Assembly (NCBI GenBank): GCA_030491005.1
Contig: JAKZMJ010000030.1
Location: forward strand, 1 to 64,000
DNA from: Sulfurospirillum sp.
GTDB taxonomy: Bacteria > Campylobacterota > Campylobacteria > Campylobacterales > Arcobacteraceae
Reading direction: 5' to 3'
Length of the DNA: 64,000 nucleotides
The position numbers and the translations under genes were made by a program. The notes beneath the pieces are model-generated. The model saw only the letters and a list, made by a program, of their open reading frames with translations, was not told the DNA's origin and made no database searches. Positions 57,870 to 64,000 of the stretch are shown here, piece after piece (within the stretch, counting starts at the first letter, position 1; every line of letters starts with the position of its first letter).

Positions 57870-58148
57870 TTAAAATGCAGCTATTTGTTTAGATAATTCA
57901 GCTATATCAGCATCACTTAGTCTAGCAACTTGACCTTTCATAAGACCTTTCATAGCCCCACCATAAGAACCATCTTTATAACCTTTTAATGCAGCTTCAA
58001 CTTTAGCAACATCCCAACCTTTAATTACAGCAGACTTTCCTAAAGCTTTTTTGCTTCCATCTACACCGTGGCAACCTGCACAGGGTGCATAATTTGCTGC
58101 GAATAAAGAAACAGCAGTAACTATAGACAATAACATAATTTTTTTCAT
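57870..58148 (-). CDS. Cytochrome c553-like small periplasmic cytochrome
   Basis: A 92-residue protein with signal peptide (MKKIMLLSIVTAVSLFA) and one CxxCH heme motif in YAPCAGCHGVDG. The Met ligand is probably in GLMKGQVARLSD. Such c553 proteins shuttle electrons from the bc1 complex to terminal oxidases in this phylum. A minus TATAAT (plus 58176-58181) and AAGGA-type ribosome site precede it; the gene is monocistronic. Confidence 0.93.
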   Translation of the reverse strand: MKKIMLLSIVTAVSLFAANYAPCAGCHGVDGSKKALGKSAVIKGWDVAKVEAALKGYKDGSYGGAMKGLMKGQVARLSDADIAELSKQIAAF

Positions 58149-58311: not shown

Positions 58312-58920
58312 ATGTCCCAAGACTATGTATTAAATATTAATAATCTATCTTTTTCATATACAAAACAACAAAGCATTTACAAAAATTTTAATTTAAAAGT
58401 AAAAATTGGTGAATTAGTTTGCATAGTTGGTTCAAGTGGTAGTGGTAAAAGTACATTGTTTGAGCTAATTTCTAAAAATTTAAAAGCTTCTAGTGGAACT
58501 ATTGTATCATCAAGTCTTAGTTTGATATTTCAAGACCCTTATAGTTCTTTTCATCCATCATATTCAATACTAAATCAAATAAAAGATGTAGTAGATTATG
58601 AAAATAATTCTTTTAAAAAAGATATTAAGAACTATTGTAAGGAATTAAATTTAGACATAAATTTATTAGATAAAAAAGTTTTTGAATTAAGTGGTGGGGA
58701 GATTCAGCGTTGTTCAATATTAAGGGCTTTATTAATGAAGCCAAAGTTATTATTAGTTGATGAACCAACTTCTTCTTTAGATAATATCATAGCTTATGAA
58801 GTTATGACTTTGCTTATTAAATGTTTGGATAAATGTGCCATTATCTTAATAACTCATGATATGGATTTAGCAAAATGGTCTAGTAATAACATTATAAATT
58901 TGGAAGGTATAAATGAATAA
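58312..58920 (+). CDS. Solitary ABC transporter ATP-binding protein (peptide/nickel-type)
   Basis: A 202-residue ATPase with Walker A GSSGSGKST (about 39-47), the Q-loop FQDPYSSFHPSYSILN typical of oligopeptide/nickel importer ATPases (Dpp/Nik), signature LSGGEIQRCSILRAL and Walker B LLLVDEPTSSLD. It is shorter than Dpp/Nik ATPases (about 260-330) and lacks their C-terminal extension. No permease or receptor gene adjoins it. It overlaps hemH by 8 bp. Confidence 0.88.
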   Translation: MSQDYVLNINNLSFSYTKQQSIYKNFNLKVKIGELVCIVGSSGSGKSTLFELISKNLKASSGTIVSSSLSLIFQDPYSSFHPSYSILNQIKDVVDYENNSFKKDIKNYCKELNLDINLLDKKVFELSGGEIQRCSILRALLMKPKLLLVDEPTSSLDNIIAYEVMTLLIKCLDKCAIILITHDMDLAKWSSNNIINLEGINE

Positions 58921-59845
58921 AAAATACAAAAAAGCATTGATTTTACTAAATATGGGTGGAGCTAGAAATAAAGATGAATTAAAAACATTTTTATCAAATA
59001 TGTTTCAAGATGAAAATATTGTAGATATTAAAAGTGGGTTTTTAAGATACTTACTATCTCGCTTTATAGTTTATAGAAGATTAAATATTGCTTGGGAGAA
59101 TTATAAACAAATAGATAATAAATCACCAATTAATGATTTAACTAAACAGTTAGTAAAAAAACTTGAAGATACCTTTGAAGATGTTTATATAGACCAAGTT
59201 ATGAGATATACACCTCCATTTGCAAATGAATGTATCAAAAAATTAAAAGATAAGGGTATTAAAGATATTGTCTTACTTCCTTTATACCCACAATATTCTA
59301 CGACTACAACTAAATCATCTATTGAAGACTTTTTAAAAGTAGCAAAAGAAGAGTTTAATATACAAACAATTGAAGAATTTTATGAAAATTCAACTTTTAA
59401 TGATGCACTAATAGAAGAAATAACAAATAAAAATTTAGATTTTGAAGAATATAATTTAATATTTTCAGCCCATGGTTTACCACAAAAAATCATAAATAAA
59501 GGTGATCCATATCAAAAACAAATCATCTCTCATGTAGAGATTTTAAGTAAAAAACTAAAAGATAAAAATATAAAATTTATGTCTACTAATTTAGCATATC
59601 AGTCAAAAATAGGACCTTTAAAATGGCTAGAACCATCTTTAGAAGATATGCTTAAAAACTTTAAAGATAAAAAAATATTAATCTATCCTATTTCTTTTAT
59701 CATTGATAATGCAGAAACCTATTTTGAATTAAGTATAGAGTATAAAGAAATAGCAAAGAATTTAGGTATTATTGATTATCAAGTTTGTTCTTGTGTTAAT
59801 AGTTCTAATAAATTTATAGAATTTATAAAAGAAATTATAAGGTAG
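58913..59845 (+). CDS. hemH: Ferrochelatase HemH
   Basis: A 310-residue enzyme that inserts Fe(II) into protoporphyrin IX, the last step of heme synthesis. It has ALILLNMGGARNKDELKTFL, LLPLYPQYSTTTTKSSIED, the catalytic His in FSAHGLPQKIINKGDPYQ and the C-terminal PISFIIDNAETYFELSIE. It is placed between the ABC ATPase (8-bp overlap) and the AMMECR1 gene (3 bp), so all four genes are one operon. Confidence 0.95.
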   Translation: MNKKYKKALILLNMGGARNKDELKTFLSNMFQDENIVDIKSGFLRYLLSRFIVYRRLNIAWENYKQIDNKSPINDLTKQLVKKLEDTFEDVYIDQVMRYTPPFANECIKKLKDKGIKDIVLLPLYPQYSTTTTKSSIEDFLKVAKEEFNIQTIEEFYENSTFNDALIEEITNKNLDFEEYNLIFSAHGLPQKIINKGDPYQKQIISHVEILSKKLKDKNIKFMSTNLAYQSKIGPLKWLEPSLEDMLKNFKDKKILIYPISFIIDNAETYFELSIEYKEIAKNLGIIDYQVCSCVNSSNKFIEFIKEIIR

Positions 59846-59848
59846 AAA

Positions 59849-60397
59849 ATGGATTTAAGAATATTACTTGATATTGCTAGAAAAAGCATTTTAACAAGTT
59901 TTGATAATAGCTTATTATTAAATAAAGAATTTTATTTAAATAATTTTAAAGATTTAAATAAAATTAGTGCAAGTTTTGTAACCTTAACAATAGATGAGAG
60001 ATTAAGAGGCTGTATAGGAACGCTACAAGCTAAGAAAATGCTTTATGATGATGTCTTTGATAATGCTAAATTATCAGCTTTTAAAGACCCACGGTTTAAA
60101 GCTTTAAGCTATCAAGAATATCTAAAAATCAAAATTGAAATTTCTGTTTTAACCCCTTTTAAAAAACTTGACTACTCAAATATGGCAGATTTAAAAGAAA
60201 AACTAATTCCAAATAAACACGGGGTAATACTTCGATATAAAAATGCAAATGCTACATATCTTCCCCAAGTTTGGGAACAAATACCAGTATTTGAAGACTT
60301 TATAAACTCTTTATGTGCAAAAGCAAAGCTAGACCCATCTATTTTAGATGAAACTCCTGATATATATACTTATGAAGCATTAAAAGTTAAAGAGTAA
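59849..60397 (+). CDS. amrA: AmmeMemoRadiSam system protein A (AMMECR1 domain)
   Basis: A 182-residue AMMECR1-family protein. The conserved LRGCIGTLQA motif occurs in the middle (TIDERLRGCIGTLQAKK), followed by SAFKDPRFKALSYQEY, KIEISVLTPFK, and HGVILRYKNANATYLPQVWEQ. Its catalytic role, if any, is unknown. It is encoded 19 bp before the radical SAM/MEMO fusion, the usual three-component set. Confidence 0.88.
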   Translation: MDLRILLDIARKSILTSFDNSLLLNKEFYLNNFKDLNKISASFVTLTIDERLRGCIGTLQAKKMLYDDVFDNAKLSAFKDPRFKALSYQEYLKIKIEISVLTPFKKLDYSNMADLKEKLIPNKHGVILRYKNANATYLPQVWEQIPVFEDFINSLCAKAKLDPSILDETPDIYTYEALKVKE

Positions 60398-60416
60398 GAT
60401 TTTTAAGGATGAAACC

Positions 60417-62192
60417 GTGACAAGTTTTTATAAAAAAAAAGATAATAAATTAATCTGTACACTTTGTAATCATTATTGTGAATTAGATACAAATCAAACT
60501 GGACTTTGTGGTGTTAATAAAAATACAGGCGACAAAGTAGAGTGTTTAGTATATGGGCATATTAGTGCTTTTAATATAGACCCTATTGAGAAAAAACCTC
60601 TTTATCATTTTTTGCCACAAAGTAAGTCTTTATCTTTAGGAACAGTTGGGTGCAACTTCAAATGTTCTTTTTGTCAAAATTGGGGTATATCACAAGAAAA
60701 AAAAATCAATAAAGAAAAGTATACAAGCCCCCAAGAAGTTGTAGCACACGCTGTTAGAAACAATTGTTTGTCTATTTCTTATACATATAATGAACCTACA
60801 ATTTTTTATCCTTATGCAAGAGATATAGCAATTGAGGCTAAGAAATATGGTATAAAAAGTGTTTATGTTTCTAATGGTTTTGAATCAAAAGAAGTTATAG
60901 AAGATATGAAAGGCATTATTGATGCTATAAATGTTGATTTAAAATGTTTTAACGATAAATATTATAAAAAACTAGGTGGTAGTTTAGATAAAGTTTTAGA
61001 AAACTTAAAAGCATTTGTAAAAAATAAAATACATTTAGAAATAACCACATTAATAGTTCCTACAAAAAATGACACAAAAGAAGAATTAAGCAAAATTGCT
61101 TCTTTTATAAAAGAAGAATTAGGCGATAATATTCCTTGGCACTTAAGTGCTTTTCATCCAGATTATAAAGAACTAGATTTGCCTAGAACTTCACTTAGCA
61201 CTTTAGAAATGGCGTTAGATATTGGTAAAAGTATGGGCTTAAACTATGTATATATAGGAAATGCTGGATTTGACAATCATACAAAATGCAAGAAATGCAA
61301 AAACATTTTAATAAAAAGACAATATTTTAACACTTTGGAAAATAATCTTATAAATTCTTCTTGTCCAAATTGTTACGAAAAATTAGATGGTGTATTTGAA
61401 GAAAACACTAGAAAAGCGTCATTTAGTGGAAGTTTTTATCCAAAAGAGAAAACTGAACTTTTAAGATATATAGAACATTTTAATAAATCTTTTTCGACAA
61501 ATAAAATAAATATCAAACCAAGAGCTATAATATCACCACATGCAGGATACATATATAGTGGATTTACAGCAAACCTAGCTTACAATCTTTCTTCAAAAAT
61601 GACTAATTTTAAGCGTATTATAGTTATAGGTCCATCTCATAAAGTATATTTAGAAGATGTTTCAATTGCTTTATATAATGACTATGAAACTCCTTTGGGA
61701 AATATCAATATAGACCTTTCTTATTCTCATTTGTTAAAAAATAAATATGATTTTATAAATTTTACAAAAAAAGCACACAAGGAACACTCAACAGAAACCC
61801 AAGCACCTTTTATAAAAAATTATTTTAATAACTCTTTAATAGTAGAGCTTGTTTATGGAAAAGTTTCTTATGAAAAATTAAGCATATTAATTGATGATTT
61901 ATTGCAAGATAAAGATAATTTTATAGTAATAAGTACAGATTTAAGTCATTTTTATGATTTAAAAAAAGCAAATGAACTTGATAATATTTGTTTAAATGCT
62001 ATTGTAAAAAAAGACTTAGCACTTTTTGATAAAGGTTGTGAAGCTTGTGGAATGACAGGAGTTAAAGCTATGATTAATTCATCTATTAAATACAAACTTA
62101 AAACTCATTTTTTACATTATTGTACTAGCTATGATAATACTAAAGATGATAAAAGTGTTGTTGGTTATGCTTCTGTACTTATTGGCGAATAA
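60417..62192 (+). CDS. amrS: AmmeMemoRadiSam fusion: radical SAM enzyme + MEMO domain
   Basis: A 591-residue fusion starting at GTG (60417; AAGGA 7 bp upstream). Residues about 1-330 are the radical SAM enzyme, with the N-terminal Cys pairs LCNHYCELDTNQTGLCG, the cluster motif CNFKCSFCQNWGI and a C-terminal CxxC pair (CKKCKN...CPNCYEK). Residues about 335-591 are the MEMO domain: PHAGYIYSG, VIGPSHKVYLEDV, DLSHFYDL, CGMTGVKAM; His/Cys ligands of MEMO proteins are conserved. Usually these are separate proteins, so the fusion supports direct coupling. The reaction is unknown to me. Confidence 0.9.
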   Translation: MTSFYKKKDNKLICTLCNHYCELDTNQTGLCGVNKNTGDKVECLVYGHISAFNIDPIEKKPLYHFLPQSKSLSLGTVGCNFKCSFCQNWGISQEKKINKEKYTSPQEVVAHAVRNNCLSISYTYNEPTIFYPYARDIAIEAKKYGIKSVYVSNGFESKEVIEDMKGIIDAINVDLKCFNDKYYKKLGGSLDKVLENLKAFVKNKIHLEITTLIVPTKNDTKEELSKIASFIKEELGDNIPWHLSAFHPDYKELDLPRTSLSTLEMALDIGKSMGLNYVYIGNAGFDNHTKCKKCKNILIKRQYFNTLENNLINSSCPNCYEKLDGVFEENTRKASFSGSFYPKEKTELLRYIEHFNKSFSTNKINIKPRAIISPHAGYIYSGFTANLAYNLSSKMTNFKRIIVIGPSHKVYLEDVSIALYNDYETPLGNINIDLSYSHLLKNKYDFINFTKKAHKEHSTETQAPFIKNYFNNSLIVELVYGKVSYEKLSILIDDLLQDKDNFIVISTDLSHFYDLKKANELDNICLNAIVKKDLALFDKGCEACGMTGVKAMINSSIKYKLKTHFLHYCTSYDNTKDDKSVVGYASVLIGE

Positions 62193-62341: not shown

Positions 62342-62683
62342 TTATTCTAATTCCAACTGCATTAGCATCAAATCTTCACCATCAATGACATCTAATTCCA
62401 CACTTTTACATTTTGGACAAGCATAGTCACTTTTTTCTAATTCACTCGTTGTATCACAGTCTAAACATTTTATTTTTATTTTTTGAATATTTTGGATATA
62501 CTCACAATCTTCACATATCGTACCTTCTTTAAAAGTATCAAATGCAGTTTTTAATAAATCAGGTTCAACTCCACTCATTACACCAATCTTTACAACAACT
62601 CTTAAAACTTTTGTAGAATTATTAGCTTTAACATTTTCTTCACATTGGTCTAATAAACTTTGAACTATACTATATTCATGCAT
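62342..62683 (-). CDS. hypA: Hydrogenase maturation nickel-insertion protein HypA
   Basis: A 113-residue HypA. Nickel binding uses the N-terminal MHEYSIVQSLL; the zinc finger is KCLDC...CPKC near residues 73-93. HypA delivers Ni to [NiFe] hydrogenase, and in this phylum also to urease. It overlaps hypX by 8 bp (minus strand), so the pair belong to a hydrogenase maturation operon that continues outside the window. Confidence 0.93.
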   Translation of the reverse strand: MHEYSIVQSLLDQCEENVKANNSTKVLRVVVKIGVMSGVEPDLLKTAFDTFKEGTICEDCEYIQNIQKIKIKCLDCDTTSELEKSDYACPKCKSVELDVIDGEDLMLMQLELE

Positions 62684-64000
62684 TTTTATTTTCCTTATAT
62701 TTTAATCTTTTAGGTGTTGAAGTTTGACATATTTTATGAACAAATTCATATCTTAGTTTATGAAAGACAGAATCTTTATTCCAAAATTCATCATACATTA
62801 TAGTTATTTCATTTTTACGATATTGTTCTATTTGTGATTGATTTTCTTCTAAATAATCTTCTTTATTCCAAAGTATATTATCAAACTCGTCTTCATTATG
62901 TATTAGGTTTTGACAATAATTTTCTAAATCACTGTTATAAGTTTTTATACCAAAAACTTCATCTACTAAATTTATCTTTTTAGCTTTTAAAGCTGATATA
63001 GGTAAACAATTATCCAATAGTTTACTTGCAATATCTTTATTTACTCTTTTATATAATGAATAAATATGGTATTCACTCCCACTTAATCCTAATGATTTGT
63101 AATGTGGATTAAATATTGTTGTATTTGATGATATAACTTTATCACAAGCAGTTGCCAAAAAAACTCCGCCTGCACCTGCATTTTTACTAACAGATGCCAC
63201 TGTTATAACTTCACTAGCAAATATTATTGATTTTAATAAATCATTAATGGCATTGATATTACTCCAGCCATCTTCACCATTTTTTTTACTATCTTCTAAA
63301 ATATTTAGATTTATTCCATTAGAAAAGAAATCATCACCTCCCATAAGCACTAAAACTTTTACTTGAGTTTTAATATATTCAATAGCATATTTTAATCTCA
63401 TACATTGCTCAGCTCTAAATGCACCATTGTGAAAATTAAAATACAAATAAGCAATATCATTTTTTATATCACAAGATATTTCATAAAATGTTTTATAACT
63501 TTTATCAAATATCAAAGGCAATCTATGCTCTTTAATCCCTTTTAATTTGTTTTTTAATACATAAGTCGCAGGAAGCTTAAATTTATCTATCTCTTTTAAA
63601 TGACTTATCCAAATTGCACCATCAATAGTACCCAAACAAATTGCACCATCTCTTTTTGCAATTATCTTTTTTGGTTTATCACTATATAATTTTTCTTCTA
63701 TCCAAGCTCCAAATAAAAAGTACTTCATACCTAATATCTCATCTAAAATCCCAGGGAAACTATCAAGAATATTTATTTTATTAACTATCTCTTGTGATGT
63801 GTCTTTTTGCCAATTTATTTGTAAATTTGGTTTGTTATTTAGTGGATTTAATATTTGTTTTGTATAAATAGCATCTTTAAAATTTATAAACAAATCATCT
63901 AATGTAGCATAAAAACTATTGTTTACTTCATTTCTATATATACTTGCCTTTGTGGTTTGTCTTATCTTAAAATCATAATTTGTGTATATATCTCCACCAT
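62676..64000 (-). CDS. hypX: HypX-like hydrogenase maturation protein (3' part, truncated by window)
   Basis: The frame is open to the window edge; the first codon after an internal TTG at 63893 is not the real start. The visible about 440 residues begin GGDIYTNYDFKIRQTT and SIYRNEVNNSFY, which match the end of the N-terminal formyltransferase-like domain. The following enoyl-CoA hydratase/isomerase-like domain has GAICLGTIDGAIWISH, LMGGDDFFSNGINLN, NAGAGGVFLATACDKV. HypX makes CO ligand for [NiFe] hydrogenase under oxic conditions. The 5' part is missing. Confidence 0.85.
   Translation of the reverse strand, partial: GGDIYTNYDFKIRQTTKASIYRNEVNNSFYATLDDLFINFKDAIYTKQILNPLNNKPNLQINWQKDTSQEIVNKINILDSFPGILDEILGMKYFLFGAWIEEKLYSDKPKKIIAKRDGAICLGTIDGAIWISHLKEIDKFKLPATYVLKNKLKGIKEHRLPLIFDKSYKTFYEISCDIKNDIAYLYFNFHNGAFRAEQCMRLKYAIEYIKTQVKVLVLMGGDDFFSNGINLNILEDSKKNGEDGWSNINAINDLLKSIIFASEVITVASVSKNAGAGGVFLATACDKVISSNTTIFNPHYKSLGLSGSEYHIYSLYKRVNKDIASKLLDNCLPISALKAKKINLVDEVFGIKTYNSDLENYCQNLIHNEDEFDNILWNKEDYLEENQSQIEQYRKNEITIMYDEFWNKDSVFHKLRYEFVHKICQTSTPKRLKYKENKNA

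Follow-up and report, generated by a model that had tools for sequence, protein, structure and literature searches.

A fused AmmeMemoRadiSam system in a family-specific hemH operon of the Arcobacteraceae, in which AmrS may depend on an AMMECR1/MEMO core

The window, a 64,000-nucleotide stretch of a Sulfurospirillum sp. contig from an Arcobacteraceae genome, contains four forward-strand genes between positions 58,312 and 62,192. The first encodes a solitary ABC ATPase of 202 amino acids (58312..58920) with intact Walker A, Q-loop, signature and H-loop motifs. It overlaps by 8 nt with hemH (58913..59845), which encodes a ferrochelatase of 310 amino acids. This protein scores 263 bits with TIGR00109 (cut-off 124.6), and the catalytic residues His187 and Glu268 lie in conserved columns. 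After a 3-nt gap, amrA (59849..60397) encodes an AMMECR1 protein of 182 amino acids with the invariant RGCxG motif (R53-G57). The fourth gene, amrS-amrB (60417..62192), has a GTG start, with AAGGA upstream at 60405-60409, and encodes an AmrS-MEMO fusion of 591 amino acids. All four open reading frames lie where the first-pass annotation placed them, as overlapping or adjacent genes. A small cytochrome c gene on the reverse strand (57870..58148) is divergent and, in the neighbourhood comparison, a conserved upstream neighbour outside the system. On the downstream side, hypA (62342..62683, reverse strand) is the end of a convergent hyp/hydrogenase operon and an incidental neighbour that is absent from the sister locus, L069. 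A promoter and terminator scan gives a signal no better than chance.

The curated NCBIfam cut-offs define the components A (AMMECR1), B (MEMO) and rS or S (AmrS) of the AmmeMemoRadiSam system. AmrA matches TIGR04335 with 170.4 bits (cut-off 99). In the adjoining protein, TIGR04337 matches residues 6-332 with 341.7 bits (cut-off 220) and TIGR04336 matches residues 332-588 with 226.4 bits (cut-off 26). Both models therefore exceed their cut-offs in one open frame, which bears out the radical SAM-MEMO fusion reported in the first-pass annotation. The AmrS domain occupies 60417..61406 and the MEMO domain 61407..62189. By comparison with split gene pairs, the junction (61395..61418) is linkerless and reads GVFEEN followed by TRKASFSGSFYP. 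The fusion is present in one copy in this genome. With all three models (A, B and rS) over their cut-offs, the locus is classified by sequence as an AmmeMemoRadiSam system, and its components are adjacent and co-directional as in that system. It differs in that AmrS and MEMO form one polypeptide and in its genomic setting, with hemH on one side and, among relatives, ElyC and ZnuBC-like genes on the other. The system itself is already known and uncharacterised; in line with the first-pass annotation, the literature searched reports no reaction for it. The Memo-Ammecr1-radical SAM linkage was described by Burroughs et al. (2019), as cited in PMC7159879. The search found no description of the S-B fusion or of the nested retention described below, though Burroughs et al. 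(2019) may report fusions.

The AmrS domain has the CX3CX2C motif of the radical SAM superfamily (C79, C83 and C86, at 60651-60674) and a predicted PflA-like fold. Its closest match is the pyruvate formate-lyase activating enzyme (PDB 3C8F, 8FO0), with a TM score of 0.80 by target and a shared radical SAM core. AmrS differs from that enzyme by eight additional cysteines in an N-terminal set (C14/C17/C21/C31) and a C-terminal set (C291/C294/C316/C319), by its fusion to MEMO, and by the lack of a partner, as no cognate glycyl-radical enzyme is encoded at this locus. The AmrS cysteines are conserved in 85-88 of 89 alignment rows. Scores with the PflA-type activase models are below cut-off (TIGR02493, 51 bits versus 232; TIGR02494, 45 bits versus 174).

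In the MEMO domain, residues H375, H408, C544, H511 and D508 correspond to H49, H81, C244, H192 and D189 of human MEMO1, whose metal-ligand residues are known (PMC11081632). C544 is outside the local alignment to the human protein and is matched to C244 by position. The domain is predicted to have the same fold as human MEMO1 (PDB 7KQ8, 7L5C, 3BCZ; TM 0.77 by target) and appears to have the same metal-ligand pattern. The two differ in that their identity is approximately 25% and the fusion adds an N-terminal radical SAM domain. Metal data are available for human MEMO1 (PMC11081632, PMC9477392), an iron-binding protein with a link to iron homeostasis (PMC11081632). The His-His-Glu site of class III extradiol dioxygenases (LigB) was considered and rejected, as the third ligand here is a cysteine (C544), as in MEMO1 (PMC11081632). 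AmrA is homologous to archaeal AMMECR1 proteins that were solved as hypothetical proteins (PDB 1VAJ, 1WSC, 1ZQ7).

The MEMO ligands are invariant or nearly so in 94 alignment rows, 22 of which are from genomes without AmrS. The AMMECR1 columns that are invariant in full systems have at most one deviation in AMMECR1-MEMO genomes and up to five in AMMECR1-only genomes. This retention indicates that MEMO and AMMECR1 are, as judged from residue conservation, still under constraint where AmrS is absent. In the AlphaFold2 model of the fusion (pLDDT 91.7, pTM 0.74) both domains fold confidently; at this pTM their mutual placement is uncertain.

Assembly error can be ruled out as the source of the fusion, which also occurs in a sister genome (89% identity) and in 16 further Arcobacteraceae genomes. 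AmrS is present in approximately half of the 104 Arcobacteraceae genomes sampled and is fused to MEMO in 18 of them. The remaining AmrS genes are separate and usually overlap or abut MEMO, with the members of a pair a few bases overlapping or a few bases apart. Fusion junctions are linkerless, and the methionine that once started MEMO is still present in several fused homologues; the fusion therefore resembles a plain read-through of adjoining genes. The first-pass annotation had proposed a neighbourhood survey of amrS fusions. Run within the Campylobacterota for the fusion and the hemH link, it finds a recurrent S-B fusion; in the 397 genomes of the phylum sample, AmrS frames of ~590-605 amino acids at cut-off strength are seen in the Arcobacteraceae only. 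One contig scan gave close relatives and one distant match. The fused or split state changes at least six times on the hemH-ATPase-CcoI tree and at least five times on the AmrS and MEMO trees; all of these trees come from quick searches and have partial branch support. A single fused clade is rejected by the AU test for both domain trees (p 0.0004 and 0.0007).

MEMO is also fused to AMMECR1 in other families, with lengths of 476-485 amino acids in loci L207, L208, L210 and L218 and 478 amino acids in L186. In locus L209 the order is reversed (AMMECR1-MEMO, 439 amino acids). The recurrence of S-B fusions together with B-A and A-B fusions points to MEMO as the hub of the trio. Four of these loci (L207:5114-6556, L208:4718-6166, L210:5767-7224 and L218:4570-6000) contain the MEMO-AMMECR1 protein as a second paralogue in another family. 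In three of the four it has a hydrophobic, signal-peptide-like start, which would place it outside the cytoplasm, and in three loci pdxA/pdxJ-like genes are nearby. Locus L198 (6024-7832) encodes a 602-residue protein with an AmrS-like radical SAM domain, under the AmrS cut-off, and a Peripla_BP_2 (BtuF-like) domain; it is flanked by two methyltransferase-like genes. In L047, L053, L056 and L068, a response regulator/PAS protein of ~610 amino acids sits between amrA and amrS.

The presence of the three components is nested, with AmrS found within the MEMO-bearing genomes and MEMO within the AMMECR1-bearing genomes. Among the 104 family genomes, 49 have all three, 21 have AMMECR1 and MEMO, 6 have AMMECR1 alone, 26 have none and two are fragmentary. 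In the phylum sample, MEMO accompanies AmrS in all 132 genomes that have AmrS, and AMMECR1 does so in 131; in the remaining one (G303), MEMO lies at a contig end. MEMO occurs without AmrS in 16 genomes. AMMECR1 occurs without MEMO in 6, with weak AMMECR1 matches in two of them, and MEMO without AMMECR1 is seen once, in the contig-end case above. Mapped onto the family tree, AmrS shows at least seven changes within the MEMO-bearing rows, and every row with AmrS also has MEMO; by parsimony the changes may be losses or gains. The Fisher test on the phylum table gives p 6e-88 with relatedness ignored. Taken alone, the independent-pairs sign test is not significant (median p 0.125), since pairs that differ in both are too few; the case for asymmetry is made by the seven-to-nothing count together with the phylum table. 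In six genomes (G010, G011, G021, G022, G026 and G030; loci L060, L061, L066, L067, L070 and L071), AmrS is far more alike than is the MEMO or hemH region of the same genomes. Close relatives of these genomes have no AmrS, so amrS may have entered the operon recently by transfer. Locus L179 (also G115, G137 and G440) contains tandem duplicated standalone AmrS genes at a distance from MEMO and AMMECR1; these genes form a clade of their own.

The nesting, together with intact MEMO ligands in genomes without AmrS, suggests that AmrS depends on MEMO and AMMECR1 and not vice versa. AMMECR1 and MEMO would then form a core, putatively as a physical complex, in which MEMO is predicted to bind Fe(II) or Cu(I) with two histidines and one cysteine as ligands. 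AmrS, as a PflA-like radical SAM enzyme, would generate a 5'-deoxyadenosyl radical and use it on the product of MEMO or on a residue of MEMO or AMMECR1; it would thus act on MEMO or later than MEMO, but not ahead of it. The fusion would keep the two active sites together. If AmrS were the source of the MEMO substrate, MEMO would depend on AmrS; the reverse is seen, and from the distribution we infer action on or after MEMO as the simplest reading. Burroughs and colleagues reportedly proposed, in 2019, nucleotide-base and isoprenoid substrates. Against AmrS acting on or after MEMO, nesting shows dependence and not chemistry: AMMECR1 and MEMO might have another, unrelated role in species without AmrS, with AmrS acting upstream of MEMO elsewhere. 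AmrS also looks to have been recently transferred among some genomes of one genus (g2). Since a double role for MEMO or a replacement of AmrS would fit as well, a core on which AmrS depends, acting on or after MEMO, is a tentative reading that falls somewhat short of probable.

A bolder reading, which is rather doubtful, takes AMMECR1 and MEMO together as a two-protein metalloenzyme module that is complete in itself and that animals share. AmrS would have been added as a dispensable, last-acting radical step or as an anoxic activator. MEMO1 and AMMECR1 are linked to disease in humans. The strict nesting, the MEMO-hub fusions and the metal site retained without AmrS make the order of action testable, and closely related bacteria differ naturally in just the AmrS step. 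If AmrS is an add-on, the Arcobacteraceae offer natural versions of one operon with and without it, in which comparative metabolomics or proteomics could reveal the function of human MEMO1 and AMMECR1.

The first-pass annotation took the fusion to imply that MEMO processes the radical SAM product. Part of that claim stands: every genome with AmrS also has MEMO (132 of 132), so the fusion marks a real functional coupling. The order is weakened, as MEMO is retained with all its ligands where AmrS is absent. In an AmrS-first pathway, a different and perhaps oxygen-dependent enzyme would supply such genomes with the intermediate. Repeated fusion of two proteins that are never found as AmrS alone is what consecutive steps would give. 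Animals have MEMO1 and AMMECR1 and, to our knowledge, no AmrS, which also fits. However, a replacement enzyme would be needed in every lineage without AmrS, across at least seven changes, and none is found at the locus, which makes this order unlikely.

AmrS could instead be an activase whose target, a residue of AMMECR1 (the RGCxG motif) or of MEMO, receives a modification or radical, after which the target protein works. PflA and the glycyl-radical activases are the nearest characterised relatives of AmrS by sequence and fold, AMMECR1 has an invariant Gly/Cys motif, and S depends on A and B. However, AMMECR1 and MEMO are conserved without AmrS, motif included, so the modification cannot be essential, and neither protein has a glycyl-radical domain. 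An activase role is accordingly quite improbable.

The preferred reading, of an AMMECR1/MEMO core on which AmrS depends, places HemH and the ATPase outside the system as operon companions. The usual gene order in the family is CcoI, CcoS, cytochrome c (divergent), ATPase, hemH, amrA, amrS, memo, ElyC, ZnuC-like and ZnuB-like. Where amrA and this hemH occur together in an Arcobacteraceae genome, amrA comes directly after hemH in 59 of 64 cases; these include 12 of 16 genomes without AmrS and 6 of 6 without MEMO. The locus hemH is the only hemH of this genome; many relatives have a second copy elsewhere. The CemR paper on C. jejuni and A. butzleri mentions hemH in C. jejuni only.

The first-pass annotation read the hemH linkage as a sign of a metal- or tetrapyrrole-related role. 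The 59 of 64 adjacencies, the CcoI (copper) and ZnuBC-like metal transport genes among the neighbours, and the iron binding of MEMO1 with its link to iron homeostasis (PMC11081632) would all suit a heme or tetrapyrrole function. However, none of 40 amr loci of other families has hemH nearby, hemH is universal in the Arcobacteraceae and the amr genes are not, and 8 sampled genomes that lack all amr genes still have the hemH-ATPase pair. Of the refuting conditions named in the annotation, non-conservation of the hemH link is half borne out: the link is conserved in the Arcobacteraceae and not beyond. Because the link persists without AmrS or MEMO and is absent from the 40 loci of other families, it is a family-level gene order, and a heme role is very improbable. 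The nested distribution of AmrS and MEMO is more informative about how the trio works than is the neighbouring heme gene.

In 67 of 72 Arcobacteraceae genomes the ATPase gene lies just upstream of hemH, and these include all 8 genomes that lack amr genes altogether; by gene order the ATPase appears to belong with hemH. It matches ABC_tran (E 2.9e-25), and its ATPase motifs are invariant in a 66-row alignment. Its description as an orphan ATPase of the peptide/nickel type holds in that no permease lies beside it and its Q-loop reads FQDPYSSFHP. However, it reaches no NCBIfam subfamily cut-off (NikE, 99.7 bits versus 332; NikD, 98.7 versus 319) and is conserved beside hemH. It was rejected as a missing subunit of the genome's peptide importer, whose operon (G000:C32) already has both ATPases. 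Permease genes with identical scores on two contig pairs (G000:C15/C26 and G000:C2/C23) suggest redundant contigs or duplication in the assembly.

A role in nickel or hydrogenase maturation, prompted by HypA/HypX downstream, a hyp operon that ends 150 bp from the fusion and the nickel-type ATPase, is rejected as highly implausible and the linkage as incidental, since the sister locus has no hyp neighbour, the sister genome has no NiFe hydrogenase, and AmrS occurs in 7 genomes without one, with no correlation across the 104 genomes (Fisher p 0.44). Positions 62676-64000 of the window (reverse strand) and locus L211 also contain hypX, with formyltransferase C-terminal and enoyl-CoA hydratase domains, and a full hyp/NiFe-hydrogenase operon.
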